This document shows, piece after piece, positions 55,173 to 63,730 of a DNA stretch of 64,000 bases. A program made the translations under genes and the position numbers. Location: NCBI RefSeq assembly GCF_006965485.1, contig NZ_CP041360.1:4134501-4198500 (forward strand). The letters run 5' to 3'. The DNA comes from Spirosoma sp. KCTC 42546. Lineage in GTDB: Bacteria; Bacteroidota; Bacteroidia; Cytophagales; Spirosomataceae. The notes beneath the pieces are model-generated. The model made no database searches. It worked only from the letters and a program-made list of their open reading frames with translations, and was not told where the DNA came from. How positions within the stretch are numbered: position 1 is the first letter of the stretch; the number at the start of each line of letters is the position of its first letter.

Positions 55173-56663
55173 ATGGGAAAACCTACCGGATTTTTAGAAT
55201 TTACGCGCGAGCTACCCAAAAAGCGCGACCCGCAGCAGCGGATTCACGATTACAAGGAAATTGAGATGCCGCACTCGGAGAAAGACTCCCAGCGGCAGGC
55301 TGCCCGGTGTATGGACTGCGGCACACCGTTCTGCCACAGCGGCTGTCCACTGGGAAACATCATTCCTGAGTTCAACGACGCGGTTTACGAACAGAACTGG
55401 GCCTATGCCTACGAGATTCTGAGCTCGACGAATAACTTCCCGGAATTTACGGGTCGTATTTGCCCGGCTCCCTGCGAAGCCTCGTGTGTATTGGGCATCA
55501 ATAAACCGCCCGTCGCTATTGAGTTCATAGAAAAGTCGATTGCCGAAGCCGCTTTTGAGCATGGCTACATAACCCCAAAGCCGCCTAAAGAACGGACGGG
55601 TAAGCAGGTAGCTGTGGTAGGGTCTGGCCCGGCGGGTCTGGCCGCTGCGGCTCAGCTTAACAAAGCAGGCCACACCGTTACGCTATTTGAGCGGGCCGAT
55701 CAGATTGGGGGTTTGTTACGTTACGGCATCCCTGACTTCAAACTTGAGAAGTGGACCATCGACCGCCGGTTAGCGGTGATGGAAGCTGAAGGCATAACCT
55801 TCAAAACAGGTGTTAATGTTGGCGTAGATGTAAAGGCGAACGATTTACTGAATGACTTTGATTTAGTAATGCTGACCGGTGGTTCCACCGTGCCGCGCGA
55901 TCTGCCAATTCCGGGTCGTAACCTCAAGGGAATTTATCCAGCAATGGAATTCCTGAGCCAACAGAACAAGCGTAATGCTAAGCTTCCGGTTGTCGTTGAT
56001 CATCAGGGTGAGAAGTACAGCGATGGCGAATTACTGGCAACGGGTAAAAACGTAGTTGTTATTGGTGGTGGCGATACAGGTTCCGACTGTGTCGGAACGT
56101 CAAACCGACATGGTGCTACCAGTATAACCCAAATTGAGTTAATGCCAATGCCACCGAAAGACCGGGCCGAGAATACGCCCTGGCCTAATTGGCCCATGAT
56201 GCTTCGCACCAGTTCCTCGCATGAGGAAGGTTGTGACCGGCACTGGTCTATCAACACCAAGGAATTCATTGGCGACGAAAACGGCAGTCTGAAAGCACTC
56301 CGTATTGTTGACCTGACCTGGAAACACGAGAACGGCCGCATGCAAATGGTGGAGCTACCCGGTTCGGAACGCGACATCCCCTGCGAACTGGCCCTACTGG
56401 CCGCTGGCTTCCTGCATCCGCAGCACAACGGCCTGCTAGACGACCTCGGTCTTGAGTACGACGAGCGCGGCAACGTAAAAGCGACGAACTACCAGACAAC
56501 GACCAATCCGAAAGTATTTGCCGCTGGCGATATGCGTCGGGGTCAATCGCTGGTTGTCTGGGCTATCTCAGAAGGTCGTGAAGCTGCCCGCGCTGCTGAC
56601 CTGTACCTGATGGGTGAGACCATGCTCGAAGCGAAAGCGGTTTCGATGATAGCGGTGGACTAA
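55173..56663 (+). CDS. gltD: Glutamate synthase, small subunit
   Basis: A 496-residue NAD(P)H-dependent subunit passing electrons to GltB. The N-terminal Fe-S cysteines are CMDCGTPFCHSGCPLGN and CPAPCEASC. FAD binding is at VGSGPAGLAAAAQLNKAGH and NAD(P)H binding at VIGGGDTGSDCVG. The C-terminal AAGDMRRGQSLVVWAI is typical. Both Fe-S motifs are intact. It ends at a good terminator, 170 nt before the recombinase. Confidence 0.97.
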   Translation: MGKPTGFLEFTRELPKKRDPQQRIHDYKEIEMPHSEKDSQRQAARCMDCGTPFCHSGCPLGNIIPEFNDAVYEQNWAYAYEILSSTNNFPEFTGRICPAPCEASCVLGINKPPVAIEFIEKSIAEAAFEHGYITPKPPKERTGKQVAVVGSGPAGLAAAAQLNKAGHTVTLFERADQIGGLLRYGIPDFKLEKWTIDRRLAVMEAEGITFKTGVNVGVDVKANDLLNDFDLVMLTGGSTVPRDLPIPGRNLKGIYPAMEFLSQQNKRNAKLPVVVDHQGEKYSDGELLATGKNVVVIGGGDTGSDCVGTSNRHGATSITQIELMPMPPKDRAENTPWPNWPMMLRTSSSHEEGCDRHWSINTKEFIGDENGSLKALRIVDLTWKHENGRMQMVELPGSERDIPCELALLAAGFLHPQHNGLLDDLGLEYDERGNVKATNYQTTTNPKVFAAGDMRRGQSLVVWAISEGREAARAADLYLMGETMLEAKAVSMIAVD

Positions 56664-56683
56664 TACGTATTGCCGATTAATAG

Positions 56684-56728
56684 AAGCCGCCCGGCTGCTG
56701 GTGCCAACCAGTAGCCGGGCGGCTTTTT
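56684..56728 (+). terminator. Terminator after gltBD
   Basis: An 18-bp stem (AGCCGCCCGGCTGCTGGT type, 17 pairs) with a short loop and a following TTTTTATTT. It cleanly separates gltBD from the mobile region. Confidence 0.9.
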
Positions 56729-56834
56729 ATTTGTAATTATTTTTTGTTCTTTTGTATCATTACAAGTTAATTTATTTACCGACCACAATACTAAAGGGAT
56801 TTTTCTTAGTAGAATACGTACGATTACATAAACG

Positions 56835-57950
56835 ATGCTAGTGATGACTAACTCAAATTTACCTGGTACCGAGCATTTGCCAACCGCTATAAGGTATGAA
56901 TTGAGTATGCACGCTGGCCAGCACGTAATCTTTATTTACTTCGAGTTTAACAATGAATTAAACAAACAGGTCCGTCAGCTATCGGGAGCCAGATGGAGTC
57001 GTTCACACAAAGCCTGGTACGTTACTGATATTCCTCATTATCGGCGGCTATTTGGGCTTGCGCCACAGTTGGCCGGCAAAGAGGTAATCATTCAAATTGA
57101 TCCGGTAAATCAACCAGCCTTTAAAGCACTTATAGAAACACTCCAATTGAAAGCTTACAGCGAAAGTACCATTCGGACATACCGTAATGAGTTTGCTCAG
57201 TTGCTATACCTTCTCAAAAGCATATCCGTTGATTCGTTGGAGCCAGACCGACTAAGAAGCTATTTTTTATATTGCATAAATACGTTTAAACTCTCCGAAA
57301 ACACACTTCATAGCCGTATCAATGCGATCAAGTTTTACTACGAACAGGTAGCAGGAAGGGCAAAAATGTTCATTGAAATTCCAAGGCCCAAGAAGCGGAT
57401 TAGTTTACCTAATGTATTAGCGATTAGCCAGGTTGAAAAGTTATTCTCAAATCTGGCTAATCTTAAACATAAAACGATGCTTTTTCTGGCTTACTCAGCA
57501 GGTCTGCGTGTAAGCGAAGTAGTAAATCTAAAACTGAAGAGTATTCATTCTGAACGTATGGTTATTAACATCAAGGGGGCAAAAGGAAAAAAAGATAGAA
57601 CAGTATCCCTGTCACCCGGCATATTAGATTTATTACGGAAATATTATAGTGTGTACAAGCCCAGGGAATGGCTTTTTGAAGGCCAATATGAAAATAGCCA
57701 ATACACGACCCGAAGTTTACAGCAAGTATTTCACCGGGCCAAAAATAGTGCCAAAATCATACAGCCTGTCACGTTTCATAGTCTGCGTCATAGCTATGCC
57801 ACCCATCTACACGAGCGTGGCCCAGACATTAAATTGATACAAGAATTGCTCGGCCATACTGATCTGAAAACAACGCTGAGATACACCCATGTCAGTAACC
57901 GCACTCTGGAAAATATCATAAGCCCATTTGACCAGTTAAACTTAAAATAA
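56835..57950 (+). CDS. Integron-type tyrosine recombinase with extra N-terminal domain
   Basis: A 371-residue tyrosine recombinase. Residues 1-85 are an extra N-terminal domain (HVIFIYFEFNNELNKQ, WSRSHKAWYVTDIPHYRRLF); 95-180 a SAM-like core-binding domain (YSESTIRTYRNEFAQLLYLL); 190-365 the catalytic domain with Arg225 (AGLRVSEV), Lys of GKKDR, His315/Arg318 (HSLRHSYATHL), His341 (LLGHTDLKTT) and Tyr350. The tail YTHVSNRTLENIISPFDQL resembles IntI tails, but the IntI-specific insert near patch III is not obvious. It is in the same direction as the cassettes downstream. Confidence 0.88.
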   Translation: MLVMTNSNLPGTEHLPTAIRYELSMHAGQHVIFIYFEFNNELNKQVRQLSGARWSRSHKAWYVTDIPHYRRLFGLAPQLAGKEVIIQIDPVNQPAFKALIETLQLKAYSESTIRTYRNEFAQLLYLLKSISVDSLEPDRLRSYFLYCINTFKLSENTLHSRINAIKFYYEQVAGRAKMFIEIPRPKKRISLPNVLAISQVEKLFSNLANLKHKTMLFLAYSAGLRVSEVVNLKLKSIHSERMVINIKGAKGKKDRTVSLSPGILDLLRKYYSVYKPREWLFEGQYENSQYTTRSLQQVFHRAKNSAKIIQPVTFHSLRHSYATHLHERGPDIKLIQELLGHTDLKTTLRYTHVSNRTLENIISPFDQLNLK

Positions 57951-58106
57951 GAGTCATTTTTTTAGATGACATTACAACATCTCTTCGTTGGTCACTCTTA
58001 AATTAATCGGAAACAATACAAAAAGTACGACAGATAAAGCACAATAAAGTATTCAAATTACACAAAACAATACAAAAAGTACGACAAAACTTTCGTCTAT
58101 TACAGA
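57951..58106 (+). promoter_or_regulatory. attI-like region with two 22-bp direct repeats
   Basis: Two identical 22-mers (AAACAATACAAAAAG + TACGACA) at 58011-58032 and 58065-58086, 54 bp apart, lie between the recombinase stop and the first cassette core GTTAGCGGT at 58107. In classical integrons attI carries two direct repeats bound by IntI next to the core. The region is AT-rich and holds no gene. Confidence 0.6.
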
Positions 58107-59476
58107 GTTAGCGGTCATTGTAGGCGACACCTGGATATCGAACATACATTAAAAATGAAGCGAATAAAAATGACGACTTTAATATTTGTACTTCTGCTTT
58201 TCGGCTGCAATCATACCAATACCTTCAGCCAAGGACAAAATCAAACAACCGTAGCAAAAGATACAATCAAGTCCCAAACCAAAAACTCAATCACTTCCTA
58301 TGGTCCTAAATCAATTGTTCGCTCAGTCATACAGGATAGAAAGGGCAATATCTGGATGGCTTCATGGGATGGCATTTTCCGATATGATGGAAAGTCTTTT
58401 ACTAATATTACAAGTAAAGAGAGTTCGGGACGCTTTTTTTCGATTTTAGAAGATAGCAAAGGAAATTTTTGGTTCGGGACGATTGGAGAAGGTGCTTATT
58501 ATTTTGATGGGACATCTTTTAAAAATTTCACAACAATAAACGGGCTACTTAATAATGAAGTTACAAGTATTTATGAAGATAAAAAAGGTAACATTTGGTT
58601 CGGTGTTTCCGGAGGAGCAAGCTGTTACGATGGGAAAATATTTCGGAATTATATCATAGATGAAAATGTCATTTATGAAGCTTGGAAAGGAAAAACTTTT
58701 ACGGACAGACAACCTAATAGCCTTGGTGTTATGATGGAAGACAAAACAGGGAAATTATGGATTAGTACAAAGGGTGAGGCTTATATTTATGATGGAAAAA
58801 CATTTGCAGTTCTTCGAGATAAAGACGGTAAAGCCTTTTACGGTTTTGGGGGTATAACCAAGGATAGAAAAGGCAATATTTGGTTTAGTGCAAATGATGG
58901 TATTTGGCGTTATGACGATAGCACATTTACTAAGTTTTCGGAGAAAGGTGCTTCATCAATACTTGAAGATAAAAAAGGAAACATCTGGACTTCTTCAACA
59001 ACTGCTATGTATAATAAGCCATGGACACTTTCTCGTTATGACGAGAAGTCTTTATATAATGAAAAGCCAACAGTAACAGAAATAACAAATAAACAATTGA
59101 TATTTGGAATTCTAGAAGATTATGATGGAAATATTTGGTTTGGCTCTGGTCATGGGGTTTATCGTTATGATGGAAAAACAATCACGGACTTTAAGGAGAT
59201 ACAAGGAGATAATTAGCTAGTAGTTTAAAGTTGAGTTGGAGAAGGAATTAAAAACGGCATCATAGGCGAGAAAAAACAACGAACCGCTAACATTGGTATT
59301 GCCAATAGTGTGGCTGGACAATGAATCAATCAACAGCGGTAATACATTTGTACTTCAGTTCGGGCTTGACGAATAGAGCCAAGCATTAGTTCTAATTATT
59401 TAACTTTAGTAAAAAGCCAAGCGGCAGTTCCGAGCTGGACGGAATACTAATTCCACACCATCGGCAATACCTGGCC
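58107..59476 (+). mobile_element. Integron-like gene cassette 1
   Basis: It opens with the core GTTAGCGGT (58107-58115) and its attC-like site starts with the exact complement ACCGCTAAC (59283-59291). This reciprocal pairing is expected when R' and R'' of a cassette recombine in circular form. The cassette is about 1.37 kb, AT-rich, and carries one gene (58155). Its 3' site extends into the next cassette's core. Confidence 0.75.
58155..59216 (+). CDS. Reg_prop beta-propeller lipoprotein
   Basis: A 353-residue lipoprotein (LLFGC, Cys18) built from about seven two-component-regulator propeller repeats (for example VIQDRKGNIWMASWDGIFRYDGKSF, ILEDSKGNFWFGTIGEGAYYFDGTSF, IYEDKKGNIWFGV, ITKDRKGNIWFSANDGIWRYDDSTF). 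These repeats are normally the sensor part of hybrid kinases; here no membrane or kinase part exists. It is anchored outside the cytoplasm and may bind a carbohydrate or protein. The gene fills most of cassette 1. The start could also be Met6 (58170). Confidence 0.8.
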   Translation: MKRIKMTTLIFVLLLFGCNHTNTFSQGQNQTTVAKDTIKSQTKNSITSYGPKSIVRSVIQDRKGNIWMASWDGIFRYDGKSFTNITSKESSGRFFSILEDSKGNFWFGTIGEGAYYFDGTSFKNFTTINGLLNNEVTSIYEDKKGNIWFGVSGGASCYDGKIFRNYIIDENVIYEAWKGKTFTDRQPNSLGVMMEDKTGKLWISTKGEAYIYDGKTFAVLRDKDGKAFYGFGGITKDRKGNIWFSANDGIWRYDDSTFTKFSEKGASSILEDKKGNIWTSSTTAMYNKPWTLSRYDEKSLYNEKPTVTEITNKQLIFGILEDYDGNIWFGSGHGVYRYDGKTITDFKEIQGDN

Positions 59477-59485
59477 GTTAGTGGC
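59283..59485 (+). repeat. attC-like site 1
   Basis: R'' ACCGCTAAC (59283-59291), then a 19-base arm at 59295-59313 (GGTATTGCC...GTGTGG) pairing with 59453-59471 (17 of 19), then R' GTTAGTGGC (59477-59485). Spacers differ (3 nt left, 5 nt right), as expected for unpaired spacers of attC. The total, about 200 bp, is longer than classical attC. Confidence 0.72.
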
Positions 59486-59563
59486 AACCGCAAGGAAAAC
59501 TCAAAAGACATTTTCTGTTCAACAGAACAATTTTTCACATTTTAATCAATTATAAATAATTAA

Positions 59564-60049
59564 ATGAAACTATCTGTATCATCAATCTTACTCTTACTTA
59601 TCGTCAATACTTCTTGCTCAAACCGAATTGTCTATTGTGGACAAAATAAAACAGATCCTGTCGTAATTCGTAAAAATCCTGAAAAAGCATATTTTGAATA
59701 TGTAAAACAACATACAAATGATATAAAGTTGAGTTTGAAATATTTGAATATTTTAGATATTGGTGGCGTTTCGGCAAATACCAAAAGTGAAATAACGACT
59801 TTAAGAGAAAAGTTGAATCAACAAAATATTTTTGTGCAGGAAGTTTTAAAAAGTAGTTTTTTTGCATTTTCGCAGAACCCATGTAATAAGGAAGTTGTTA
59901 CAAATCATCTCAATATTTTGCAAAAATTTTCTGAAAGCAATAAAACTGTAAAGGATGTAACTACAACATTAGAGAAACTAACAAATAGTGTCAATTTCTC
60001 TAATGATATTGAAAGTACATTAAATAATTTAAATAAAAAATTGAAATGA
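59564..60049 (+). CDS. Cassette-borne lipoprotein of unknown function
   Basis: A 161-residue lipoprotein (lipobox NTSC, Cys18) with a helical mature part rich in Lys, Asn and Leu (FVQEVLKSSFFAFSQNPCNKEVV, TTLEKLTNSVNFSNDIESTLNNLNK). No family recognised. Its last four bases overlap the start of the next gene (ATGA), so the two are translated together. Low GC and the cassette frame suggest transfer. Confidence 0.7.
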   Translation: MKLSVSSILLLLIVNTSCSNRIVYCGQNKTDPVVIRKNPEKAYFEYVKQHTNDIKLSLKYLNILDIGGVSANTKSEITTLREKLNQQNIFVQEVLKSSFFAFSQNPCNKEVVTNHLNILQKFSESNKTVKDVTTTLEKLTNSVNFSNDIESTLNNLNKKLK

Positions 60050-61593
60050 GCAGAAAAAAACGAACAGCTTTACTGATTATTATCTTTTTATTAACATTTA
60101 TTAATAATTCCTATTGTCAAAAATGGGGGCTTAGTCCAGATTCTAGTTATATTGCTTTTCAAATTTTCGCTAAAAAGATTTATCCTATTGAAGATTGGGA
60201 AAAAATAAAAACCGTATCTCATAAAACTAATGAAGAAAATTCAATAAGTATTGGTAGCTACAAAGAAAAGAAAAAATATTTTATAGAAACATCTAATGGA
60301 TTTAATTCTTTAATTAACGACTATACTTTTCTTACTCATTACTCTGAAAACTCAATTAGTAGTTTATTCGGTACACTACTAAACATACCAACAAATACTT
60401 CAATAAACGAGATATATTTCAAATACTTTTACAATATCAATAAAGGATTAGATTTAAATAAATTTTTTTTAAACAACAATCTTAAGTCAATTATCGAAGT
60501 AAATACTTTGGATTTAAAAGAAAATAGTTCTGGTTTTTTAGGTTTTAAAACTTTGATGCTATACTATTTTATTTTTAGTCATGAAATGGCACATATAATT
60601 AATGGTGATGTTGAGCAGAAATCAAAGTTGCTTAAAAAAATTAAAAAAACTAACAAAGCCTCTAAACTTGATAAAATTAGGCAAAAATTAGATTTATTTG
60701 AATACAAAGCAGATTTATTTGCATACAATCAATTCAAAACGTTAGTAGATACTTTGAACTCGAAACTCAGTAAAGAGAGCAAAATTAAAGATTTTTGGTT
60801 TCCTAAATGTTCCTCATCTTGTATCGAACCATTGATTTTATTAGAAGAGATTGAAAATGATTACTATAAGAACATTGCTTTTGCACCACCATCAAAGCGA
60901 ATTTTAAATTTAATAAAACACATCAACAAAGACAGTGATTGCGGACTAAATATTGAAGATAATTACATATTTGGTAAAGAGTTTTTATCCTTAGTTTTTA
61001 GTAACCCTGACAATCTCAATCTTTTAGATTCTAGTAAAATAGCAAAAAACATTACCCCTTATAATGCTACTTTTTTAAAGAAAGACGCTAAATTATTTTA
61101 TGAAGCCTTATCAAATGATGATTTTATCCATAGTATCAATTCGCATAATAAAAAACTTTCAAGTAATATAATTTATGAATTATACGCTAAACACCATAAA
61201 ATTTCTATTCTTGATAAAGCCAATTACTTTTTAAAAGGAAACAACAATTACAAAACAAATCTTGATAGTGCATTTCATTACTTCAAGTTATCCGCTGACT
61301 CATTGAATAAACTTGACAATTTTTCGGTAATCAAAAGTACCCCTGAGAAGTTTGAGTATGACTTTTTATTTGTTAAAAACAGGAATCAGAAGTTAAAGCA
61401 TAATGAGGCATCTTCTGTTTTTAATTCCTTGCCTCAATTCACTCAAAAAGAAAAATTAAATTTTATTGTTGCCTTATTTTATTTCCATCTATTCAAAGAT
61501 ATTGAAAATACAAAAAAATATTTAAAAAATGAAAATGGTGTTTCGTTAACAAATTTAGTTTTATTATATGAGGAGCAGATGAAAAATAAGTGA
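60046..61593 (+). CDS. Cassette-borne exported HExxH protein
   Basis: A 515-residue protein with an N-terminal signal segment (TALLIIIFLLTFINNSYCQ). It has a zinc-peptidase motif HEMAH (His179, Glu180, His183) in IFSHEMAHIINGD and a downstream EYKAD (Glu219) as a likely third ligand, spaced like gluzincins. The remainder is helical and Lys/Asn/Phe-rich, with a possible repeat region (HYFKLSADSLNKL). Likely a secreted or periplasmic metallopeptidase; substrate unknown. Coupled to the lipoprotein upstream. Confidence 0.72.
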   Translation: MSRKKRTALLIIIFLLTFINNSYCQKWGLSPDSSYIAFQIFAKKIYPIEDWEKIKTVSHKTNEENSISIGSYKEKKKYFIETSNGFNSLINDYTFLTHYSENSISSLFGTLLNIPTNTSINEIYFKYFYNINKGLDLNKFFLNNNLKSIIEVNTLDLKENSSGFLGFKTLMLYYFIFSHEMAHIINGDVEQKSKLLKKIKKTNKASKLDKIRQKLDLFEYKADLFAYNQFKTLVDTLNSKLSKESKIKDFWFPKCSSSCIEPLILLEEIENDYYKNIAFAPPSKRILNLIKHINKDSDCGLNIEDNYIFGKEFLSLVFSNPDNLNLLDSSKIAKNITPYNATFLKKDAKLFYEALSNDDFIHSINSHNKKLSSNIIYELYAKHHKISILDKANYFLKGNNNYKTNLDSAFHYFKLSADSLNKLDNFSVIKSTPEKFEYDFLFVKNRNQKLKHNEASSVFNSLPQFTQKEKLNFIVALFYFHLFKDIENTKKYLKNENGVSLTNLVLLYEEQMKNK

Positions 61594-61637
61594 AATACTA
61601 TGAATGTGGACGCAGTATCGGGCAGACGAAAGCGGCA

Positions 61638-61835
61638 GCCACTAACATAGTATTTATGAAAAAGGGGGCGGACGGAAGTAATTGAACATCAGTAAATTAA
61701 TCAACATTTGTACCGTCGGACGGAATACTATGAAACAGTTGGAATTAACTCAACTTTGGAACAAAACCCAGCACCAGTTACGGGCGGACGAGTTCCAAAT
61801 TCCCCCTTCTTCATAAATACTTGTACGTTGGCGGC
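61638..61835 (+). repeat. attC-like site 2
   Basis: R'' GCCACTAAC (61638-61646), a 20-base arm at 61649-61668 (AGTATTTATGAAAAAG...) pairing with 61802-61821 (19 of 20), and R' GTTGGCGGC (61827-61835). Left spacer 2 nt, right 5 nt. About 200 bp, like site 1. No complete third cassette follows. Confidence 0.72.
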
Positions 61836-61895
61836 AACCCTAAATGACACAGCACTAAAAAAGTTACAGAAGACAGTACAAGAGAAAAATTTACC

Positions 61896-61943
61896 AGCGT
61901 CAAAACTGATCCCTATTACGGTAGTAAGACTTTTTTTGACGCT
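61896..61943. terminator. Hairpin at the end of the cassette array
   Basis: AGCGTCAAAA faces TTTTGACGCT across a 28-nt loop, with T-run sequence next to it. It lies between the array and the convergent DUF2461 gene. Confidence 0.6.
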
Positions 61944-61986
61944 ACCTTTTTAACTTTAGAGCTAATTCAATTGGGAAGTACTCCCC

Positions 61987-62697
61987 TTACAACGTTACCG
62001 TCTCCTCCTTCTCATCATAAAACAGATAATTCAGTAAATCACAGTAGGGTTTGATGATGCGGCTGCCGCGTACGATTTCGTCGGCGAAGTTGGGTTTGAG
62101 AACTTCCTTGTCGGTATAACGGTGCAGGAAGAATAACTCTTTGCGCCGAAGCAACTCGATTTCGGGGTGGTCGGCGGGATAGCCTTTGGGTGTTGTTTTC
62201 ATCACCTCACCCGCTGCTTCAGGAAAGTAGGTCTTGAACTCATCGGCCTCAATGATGTCCTTCAGTTGCTGAGCGTTATAGTCCACTTCCTGCCGAAATT
62301 TAGCGAGGTTAGCGGGTGTCGGCTGCCACATGCCCGCACCCAGAAACGATTGGTTACCCGGTTGGATATGTACGTAATAATCAACCCGGCCCGAATGACG
62401 TCCGCCGGGGCCGACTGCAAAGGCCAGATTTGATTTGTAGGGCGCTTTATCTTTAGAAAATCGGATGTCGCGGTTGATGCGAAAAATACAGTCTTTTACC
62501 GCGGTATTGGCTAACGGTTCAAACGGGCTAAGCCCTGCCAATACCCGCTCCACTACCGCGCAAAGCTCGGCTTTGGCAGCATCGTACCGAGGCCGGTTGG
62601 CATGAAACCACTCCCGATTGTTGTTTTGAACGAGTTCGCGCATGAACTCCAGCGTAGGCGCCGTAAAGGCCGCTTTTGAGGCAGTTTTTGTTGTCAT
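61987..62697 (-). CDS. DUF2461 (TIGR02453) family protein
   Basis: A 236-residue cytosolic protein with the family's FMRELVQNNNREWFHANRPRYDAAKAEL start, DCIFRINRDIRFSKDKAPYKSNLAFAV, GAGMWQP and LKRKELFFLHRYTD segments. Function unknown. The frame is open 29 codons upstream, but that includes the inverted repeat at 62728-62797, so the ATG at 62697 is used. Convergent with the cassette array. Confidence 0.85.
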   Translation of the reverse strand: MTTKTASKAAFTAPTLEFMRELVQNNNREWFHANRPRYDAAKAELCAVVERVLAGLSPFEPLANTAVKDCIFRINRDIRFSKDKAPYKSNLAFAVGPGGRHSGRVDYYVHIQPGNQSFLGAGMWQPTPANLAKFRQEVDYNAQQLKDIIEADEFKTYFPEAAGEVMKTTPKGYPADHPEIELLRRKELFFLHRYTDKEVLKPNFADEIVRGSRIIKPYCDLLNYLFYDEKEETVTL

Positions 62698-62727
62698 AAC
62701 TACCCCAAAGATAAGTAAATTGATGTA

Positions 62728-62797
62728 TGATATAGGATGTATAATGTATCGTTTTCTGGACATACACCATATATCGTACATCATACATCCTATATCA
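62728..62797. repeat. 21-bp inverted repeat between co-directional genes
   Basis: The arms 62728-62748 and 62777-62797 (TGATATAGGATGTATAATGTA type) match at 20 of 21. The left arm lacks C. It lies between the AraC-type gene and the DUF2461 gene. Confidence 0.8.
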
Positions 62798-63730
62798 ATT
62801 TAGCCCTAAGAGTTGCCGCTTGAACTGGCGGGGGCAGATGTTTTCGACCGAACGAAAGGCGCTACTAAAATGGGTGATACTGTTAAAGCCTGATTCATAA
62901 CAGGCATCCGTAATGGTCTTGGCTGGGTTGCTCAAAATTGCCTTTGCCCGACGGATACGTTCGGTCAGGATAAACTGGGCCGGAGAAACGCCGAGCTCAC
63001 TTTTAAAGAGTCGGAAAAAATGGGATTTAGACAGGCAGGCTTTATCACAAAGTTCCTCAACCGACAAACTACGGGTTATATTCTCACGAATATAGGTCAC
63101 CACATACGCCAGCCGGTTCGTATTTATATGCTGGCTCGTTTGCAAAAGTAAACCCGTGCGCACCTGCGTTTGTGAAAGTCGGACAATCAGCTCACGCAGG
63201 GTGTTTTTGATAAAGAAGGGCCGAAACGAGTTGTTTTCACGAAACAACCGCATCAGTTTATCCGTCAGTGAACTGATTTCAGGGTCATTCTGTACCAGAT
63301 AATTATCTGTATCCAATTGCCACTGATCTATGGTTTCGACACGCGGAATCTCTTCATTCAGCTGATCAATCGTTTCACGGATAAACTCATCTGAAATGGT
63401 GAGTGCCAGGCAGCGCGTAGGAGAATCGGTGGTGGCGTCGGGAAAATCAATCTGCATCAGCCGATCCGAGGGTAACAATAATGATTCGCCCGGTTGATAG
63501 TCGAAAGGGTCCATTTCACGCAGGTGCATCACCTTGCGGCCACTTAGCATACTGGTCATTACGGGTGCGTTGAAACGCAACTGAATCAGGTTCGCCTGCT
63601 GAAATGTCTCATACAGATGTAGTTCGGCTTCATCGTGGCTGAGTGTCAGCTTATTCTCCACCAACGTGTCCAAGCGGGCTCCCCAGGCACTTACCGCTTC
63701 CTTAGGAACCACTTTCCTTAATTTTTCCAT
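62795..63730 (-). CDS. AraC-family transcriptional regulator
   Basis: A 311-residue regulator. The N-terminal AraC-type sensor (PVMTSMLSGRKVMHLREMDPFDYQPGESLLLPSDRLMQIDFPDA) is followed by the two-helix-turn-helix DNA-binding domain (IRENITRSLSVEELCDKACLSKSHFFRLFKSELGVSPAQFILTERI and YESGFNSITHFSSAFRSV). The start at 63730 is chosen as MEKLRKVV; an in-frame ATG at 63802 lies before the promoter. It is divergent to the aldehyde dehydrogenase, its probable target. Confidence 0.9.
   Translation of the reverse strand: MEKLRKVVPKEAVSAWGARLDTLVENKLTLSHDEAELHLYETFQQANLIQLRFNAPVMTSMLSGRKVMHLREMDPFDYQPGESLLLPSDRLMQIDFPDATTDSPTRCLALTISDEFIRETIDQLNEEIPRVETIDQWQLDTDNYLVQNDPEISSLTDKLMRLFRENNSFRPFFIKNTLRELIVRLSQTQVRTGLLLQTSQHINTNRLAYVVTYIRENITRSLSVEELCDKACLSKSHFFRLFKSELGVSPAQFILTERIRRAKAILSNPAKTITDACYESGFNSITHFSSAFRSVENICPRQFKRQLLGLN

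Follow-up and report, generated by a model that had tools for sequence, protein, structure and literature searches.

This study concerns a stretch of 64,000 nucleotides from Spirosoma sp. KCTC 42546 (contig NZ_CP041360.1, positions 4,134,501 to 4,198,500 of the forward strand; hereafter the window, in whose coordinates all positions are given unless stated otherwise), in which a tyrosine recombinase gene is followed by two gene cassettes with attC-like ends. All of these features are read on the plus strand. The recombinase gene (56835-57950, 371 amino acids) runs in the same direction as the cassettes and is followed by an attI-like site (58091-58115), cassette 1 (58107-59476, 1370 bp from core to core) and cassette 2 (59477-61826, 2350 bp from core to core). 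The cassettes end in attC-like sites of 203 bp (site 1, 59283-59485) and 198 bp (site 2, 61638-61835), respectively. The array is flanked upstream by gltD and downstream by a gene that we presume to be DUF2461-like, and the segment between these two genes (56664-61986) corresponds to only ~80 bp in another genome of the genus (G009).

Both cassettes open with a GTT core, and both show the reciprocal pairing (2 of 2) that is characteristic of integron cassettes, in which R'' pairs with R' of the circular cassette. More specifically, the core of cassette 1, GTTAGCGGT at 58107, is the full 9-base reverse complement of ACCGCTAAC, the R'' that opens site 1 at 59283, and the core of cassette 2, GTTAGTGGC at 59477, is the full 9-base reverse complement of GCCACTAAC, the R'' of site 2 at 61638. 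In site 1, R'' is followed by a 19-bp stem, a long loop and the core GTTAGTGGC; its inner arms (59295-59313 and 59453-59471) pair at 17 of 19 positions and are set off by unequal spacers of 3 and 5 nt. Site 2 has a 20-bp stem, a long loop and the core GTTGGCGGC, with inner arms (61649-61668 and 61802-61821) paired at 19 of 20 positions and spacers of 2 and 5 nt. For both sites, the fold is predicted on the bottom strand. The core GTTGGCGGC (61827-61835) is the last of the array, and our site detector shows no further site beyond it in the window. An earlier sequence-only reading of this DNA had described the exact core pairing, the arms with their unequal spacers and the recombinase just upstream, and our analysis recovered all three.

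The detector requires YAAC, GTTR and paired, ungapped inner arms; core pairing is not a criterion. Applied to the window, it marked three places, namely the two attC-like sites and, at 221-282, a short palindrome; four Markov-shuffled copies of the window, searched on both strands, gave 2 matches. From at least 547 loci identified by similarity to the recombinase, the top 80 were taken; 38 of these contain at least one site of 110-210 bp and 19 a reciprocal pair, compared with 1 and 0, respectively, after one shuffle per locus. When both strands of these 80 loci and the window were considered, 51 of 69 consecutive site pairs had cores reciprocal at 9 of 9 bases (shuffled, 356 of 13,800; 2.6%), and R'' matched the core of its own site at 9 of 9 in only 2 of 69. 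We also analyzed 13 array stretches, picked by several good hits of a covariance model (R1, described below) and scored on the strand with more pairs; here, 66 of 80 pairs were fully reciprocal (shuffled, 497 of 16,000; 3.1%). In addition, 205 cores were counted in 37 array loci, and for 157 of them an exact reverse complement follows within 5 kb, 128 times at the next detected site and 29 times at places missed by the detector. The contention that such pairing is unlikely by chance is borne out by these rates, as is the recurrence of R'/R'' pairs with other cassettes, whose absence had been named beforehand as a refuting outcome. Relatives carrying the cargo at the same place without cassette boundaries were not found either.

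Two covariance models were used, R1, built from the sites of other genomes with the window excluded, and R2, which includes site 1. On the 64-kb window, R1 yielded a sole match at E ≤ 10, corresponding to site 2 (61638-61835, bottom strand, E = 7.9e-10), and did not recover site 1 (59283-59485), which R2 scores at 5.7e-43. An alignment of 37 sites gave a bottom-strand fold with a 4-pair outer helix and a 19-pair inner helix, in which 17 of the 23 helix pairs vary on both sides and 96% of the cells pair (43-51% in slid versions); since arm pairing was used to find the sites, this stem pairing is not evidence by itself. The type of mismatch is free of this constraint, as the detector penalizes both transitions equally. 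Positions with G-T on the bottom strand and A-C on the top strand outnumber the reverse by 135 to 63, with 48 of 79 sites favoring the bottom strand, 4 the top and 27 tied. A second set of 104 sites displayed 175 and 110 such positions (50 bottom, 10 top, 44 tied), and in all 37 aligned sites, two G-T pairs of the bottom strand do not vary. At the sequence level, the sites are thus consistent with an attC-type bottom-strand fold with an unpaired central spacer.

Extrahelical bases, in contrast to canonical attC sites, are scarce. The two window stems (19 and 20 nt) align without gaps and have no extrahelical base, and a first count across the family favored a bulged stem in 1 of 79 sites, a figure that is biased because the detector requires ungapped arms. 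The detector overlooked 29 exact R'', and 11 of these have a single-base bulge (gapped score ≥ 12.5), the other 128 exact matches lying at ungapped sites. In this site family, bulged bases are confined to a minority, rare but present. The single bulged base lies ~7-11 nt into the stem, as in canonical attC, in a minority of sites from L078, L022, L033, L059, L064, G339, G433, G324, G418, and G458.

The recombinase comprises an extra N-terminal domain (about residues 14-90), a SAM-like core-binding domain and a catalytic domain with residues R225, K250, H315, R318, H341, and Y350. It scores 159.4 bits on the IntI model TIGR02249, below the cut-off of 265. Its best NCBIfam score is for XerA (188.8 bits), and all Xer scores fall below the curated cut-offs, including those for XerC (TIGR02224, 158.8 bits; cut-off 335.15) and XerD (TIGR02225, 154.8 bits; cut-off 329.6); a separate protein of the same genome passes the XerD cut-off with 338.4 bits. 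No IntI match was obtained in this genome at E ≤ 1e-70 (8 candidates scored). R225 and R318 are 94 residues apart, and the corresponding spacing is 93-96 in 84 of 84 family relatives, 96-100 in four Xer proteins and 135 in 15 of 15 IntI proteins; by this comparison, the IntI insert (the I2 region) is lacking in the window recombinase and its relatives. The family also has about 87 additional N-terminal residues relative to IntI. The predicted fold is close to that of IntI4. In our trees, the IntI rows form their own clade (100/100), and one tree leaves IntI unseparated from the recombinase family. As a side observation, a paralogue at C1:5483767-5484531 of the same genome (L145, L172) is 32.5% identical and retains the N-terminal region.

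As a raw count, 11 of the 80 loci have a gene for single-strand-binding protein (SSB) at most 1.5 kb from the recombinase; in six loci (L022, L024, L026, L028, L030, and L063) it is the immediate downstream neighbor on the same strand, at a distance of 7-81 bp, and it holds that position in L122 as well. In L161 (G002), an ssb-like gene (by reading) and a recombinase relative with 47% identity come after gltD, and the several site-2 matches of that genome lie on different contigs.

The region between the recombinase and cassette 1 has the appearance of an attI site. The first core, GTTAGCGGT, starts 159 bp past the last codon of the recombinase and is preceded by TTTCGTCTATTACAGA within the attI-like site. 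A site lies downstream of the recombinase in 29 loci, and 20 of these have an exact first core within 800 bp behind the gene; the majority motif ahead of it is TTGCGTATATTTATGA. The C, G, and T of CGT in this motif are present in 15, 15, and 16 of the 20 rows, and 3 rows appear to be attC halves assigned in error. The motif is found in most of these rows, as expected of an attI site, and we consider it likely that the site serves as a docking site for cassettes. Just upstream, a 22-bp direct repeat is present in two 100% identical copies (58011-58032 and 58065-58086), which are candidate accessory sites of the region. L022 and L113 have similar repeats ahead of their first cores (by reading).

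Relatives provide indications that cassettes of this kind move. L040 (Flavobacterium sp. SM15), G324, G339, and G321 share a 1435-bp cassette at 96.9-98.9% identity; its two genes read as those of an ArsR-type regulator and of a MerT-type transporter. The identity extends from GTT to GTT, and the flanks differ on both sides. G324, G339, and G321 have three different family codes, so that this cassette occurs in at least three families, and the recombinases of the four stretches are 33-55% identical. Moreover, L040 contains an identical 481-bp cassette twice, with similarity ending right after the GTT of the right core; the left end is unreadable because the preceding sites are alike. The evidence for mobile cassettes with exact boundaries comes from relatives rather than from the window strain. 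Within the genus, 11 of 14 gltD-bearing genomes have the DUF2461-like gene within 1.5 kb behind gltD, with the recombinase absent there. The nearest recombinase in the genus (76% identical, in G015) adjoins other ORFs (open reading frames), two sites and leuCD-like genes (by reading). The gltD-DUF2461 surveys and the location in G015 therefore indicate that the platform varies by genome and has different neighbors.

With the aim of describing the spread of the system, we counted R1 sites (E ≤ 0.001; no more than 13 scored candidates for each genome) in the window's class, Bacteroidia, and found them in 191 of 247 genomes, the window's own genome included. Canonical IntI above the cut-off was present in 1 of these 247; in a phylum-wide sample, IntI passes the cut-off in 57 of 198 genomes, one of those 57 in the window's class. 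Integrons had been called scarce in Bacteroidota, which holds for canonical IntI within the class and does not hold for the sites or for the other classes of the phylum, which have IntI. The recombinase (E ≤ 1e-70) was detected in 29 of the 247 genomes, and R1 sites occur in all 29 compared with 162 of the 218 others (p = 3e-4). This cut is strict, as relatives at 37-41% identity occur in array stretches. Indeed, a recombinase relative lies inside 7 of the 13 array stretches picked by site matches, at 37-41% identity in four. Of the 19 loci that have a reciprocal pair, 15 have recombinase and cassettes in the same direction; this layout, previously regarded as atypical, is the usual one here. 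Members of the recombinase family were also observed in six records named outside Bacteroidota (L080, L082, L084, L085, L088, and L089), two of which contain R1 sites; these could be misbinned contigs.

We propose, with a probability of about 83%, that the window hosts an integron-like gene-cassette platform, consisting of a recombinase from a family without the IntI insert, a likely attI-like site at the first core (58107) and two cassettes bounded by GTT and ending in attC-like sites. The recombinase is predicted to capture, excise and reshuffle such cassettes by joining bottom-strand hairpins, likely single-stranded, to the docking site. The lines of sequence evidence for this reading are the reciprocal cores and their recurrence, the exact GTT-to-GTT cassette, the first-core motif, the association of sites with the recombinase and the bottom-biased mismatches. 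From these we infer that the window enzyme performs the recombination, that crossover takes place at the core GTT on a folded bottom-strand substrate, and that both cassettes continue to be mobile. If the analogy with integrons holds, binding of the recombinase to the duplex attI-like site and to the folded bottom strand of a cassette site would be followed by exchange of one strand at the GTT core, with resolution left to replication. In the absence of the insert, strand choice may depend on the spacer asymmetry together with the conserved G-T pairs, perhaps helped by the extra N-terminal domain; spacers and G-T pairs are the candidates given the lack of I2 and the rarity of bulged bases.

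Besides the circularity of stem pairing, several observations weigh against this proposal. A filters-off R1 run on 56000-62500 gave neither site as a full match, its best row being 12.2 bits at 56033-56066, within gltD; the two R1 runs on the window thus disagree. The detector was blank in 42 of the 80 recombinase loci (25 of the 80 have less than 2 kb downstream), and DNA folding prefers the bottom strand in only 60 of 79 sites. Among 35 further genomes of the genus, the recombinase (E ≤ 1e-60) is found in just 5, in two of which it is partial, and the window recombinase has no SSB gene as a neighbor. The two sites in G015 are not mutually reciprocal, although the R'' of the first does match the first core behind the recombinase. 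Lastly, 162 genomes have sites and no recombinase passing E ≤ 1e-70, which leaves room for the action of a different enzyme or of a relative further removed.

That last observation is also what would be expected if the cassettes were real and moved by another enzyme, such as host XerCD or a distant recombinase, with the adjacent gene being incidental. Sites in 29 of 29 recombinase-bearing genomes, a relative within 7 of 13 site-picked stretches, and a first core close behind the recombinase with a conserved motif ahead of it all speak for the adjacent gene, and we regard an incidental neighbor as highly improbable. Hardly more probable is the alternative that we are dealing with a genuine integron whose IntI is ordinary, if unusual. 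Here the cassette anatomy, the R''/R' logic, the spacer asymmetry and the attI-like site agree, as do the single bulged base in 11 of 29 detector-missed sites, the fold close to IntI4 and the one tree that fails to separate IntI; they are countered by the score of 159.4 against 265 bits, the Arg-Arg spacing of 93-96 against 135, the additional N-terminal residues and the separate 100/100 IntI clade.

An ordinary double-stranded exchange between GTT cores, the palindromes being merely duplex-like Xer sites, would suit an enzyme that is Xer-like and without the insert that serves single-stranded DNA in IntI. This model is unlikely in view of the wobble strand bias, the invariant bottom-strand G-T pairs and the SSB genes beside some recombinases. 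Chance or low-complexity coincidence can be practically dismissed; the shuffled rates of both the detector and the core pairing speak against it, and we found no point in its favor. The integron-like platform thus remains our preferred explanation. It is not a canonical integron because the IntI cut-off is missed, the insert is absent, an extra N-terminal domain is present and the window stems have no extrahelical base. The earlier designation as integron-like is apt as far as cassettes with attC-like ends beside a recombinase are concerned and does not extend to IntI itself; the system works like an integron, yet it is outside the family as IntI defines it.

A comparison with known systems clarifies this position. 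Integrons share the recombinase gene, an attI-like docking site near direct repeats, a one-direction cassette array, cassette-borne R''/R' complementarity, the GTT core, and a bottom-strand hairpin whose spacer is unpaired and whose loop varies (for the attC features, see PMC2727003). The system described here differs in lacking the IntI insert (I2), in the absence of an extrahelical base from the window stems and most others, and in its extra N-terminal domain, its 9-base cassette-specific cores, its sites of mostly 114-207 bp, and a recombinase oriented mostly in the cassette direction. In Treponema integrons, intI is likewise transcribed in the cassette direction (PMC3607928), and IntI proper is used there. 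CTXphi, which integrates by XerCD on a folded single-stranded site, has a hairpin substrate that is similarly without extrahelical bases (PMC4792948); unlike here, the phage has no recombinase of its own and no cassette arrays. With XerC/XerD and archaeal XerA, the family shares the Xer-like catalytic spacing and its best NCBIfam score (XerA), and it differs in the sub-cut-off scores, the extra N-terminal domain and the location at cassette arrays. The pdif modules have short double-stranded dif-like sites and are not known to have reciprocal cores. Their Xer-type movement is alike, Acinetobacter XerCD pdif modules being gene modules thought to be moved by Xer-type recombination (PMC7399989).

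In IntI, I2 reads the extrahelical bases and blocks the second exchange, and the joint origin of I2 and attC has been described as a chicken-egg paradox for which intermediate forms are pointed to (PMC4792948). In the IntegronFinder 2 report, one complete integron is listed in Bacteroidetes proper, in Salinibacter ruber, besides those of Chlorobi and Ignavibacteriae (PMC9024848), and a review places Bacteroidota among the integron-bearing phyla (PMC8618304). Among the papers listed in searches of the open PMC literature, we found no description of the present system. Since sites occur in 191 of 247 genomes and an exact-ended cassette in at least three families, a major path for gene exchange may have gone unnoticed. 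We tentatively postulate, at somewhat less than an even chance, a second, Bacteroidia-wide world of cassette capture on folded single-stranded sites without I2 and mostly without extrahelical bases, either as an independent invention or as a surviving pre-I2 stage ancestral to IntI, with the one-bulge sites as a halfway house. Hairpin sites and cassettes without I2 make the question of the I2/attC origin testable, and, if the postulate is true, the one-bulge minority bears on how hairpin cassettes could predate the domain that reads them.

As for the cargo, all window cassette ORFs lie on the plus strand. Cassette 1 encodes a protein of 353 amino acids (58155-59216) with two-component-regulator propeller repeats (PF07494, 1.8e-33) and a lipoprotein-like start (by reading). 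Cassette 2 encodes a protein of 161 amino acids with no significant family (ORF a, 59564-60049) and one of 515 amino acids (ORF b, 60046-61593) with a HEMAH motif, which we take to be metallopeptidase-like. Pfam and NCBIfam searches gave no family match for ORF b, and a search of 5.8 billion proteins (best 7996 candidates scored) returned only the protein itself at E ≤ 0.001. The cargo is AT-rich, as had been stated, with a GC content of 0.37 in cassette 1 and 0.28 in cassette 2 versus 0.455 for the whole window. Related arrays contain 70 closed cassettes (median, 1026 bp), of which 66 have an ORF of at least 60 amino acids, and in 64 of those 66 the longest ORF runs in the array direction.

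The loops of the sites may carry promoters for the next cassette. The motif TAnnTTTG, presumably the Bacteroidota -7 promoter-like motif, occurs in the top strand of 17 of 79 attC-like loops and in the bottom strand of 2 (shuffled mean, 5.2), in no case with a -33 box. With regard to a cassette promoter (Pc) at the attI-like site, a sigma-70 promoter scan, whose coverage does not include Bacteroidota promoters, gave 20 matches versus 21.3 in shuffles.

Two further elements were observed. At C1:4763788-4764896 of the same genome (L171, 6789-7897), a lone attC-like site lies directly behind an Mrr-type nuclease-like ORF (by reading). In the window, a 37-nt inverted repeat with a 13-nt loop is located at 62716-62802, between the DUF2461-like gene and an AraC-like gene.

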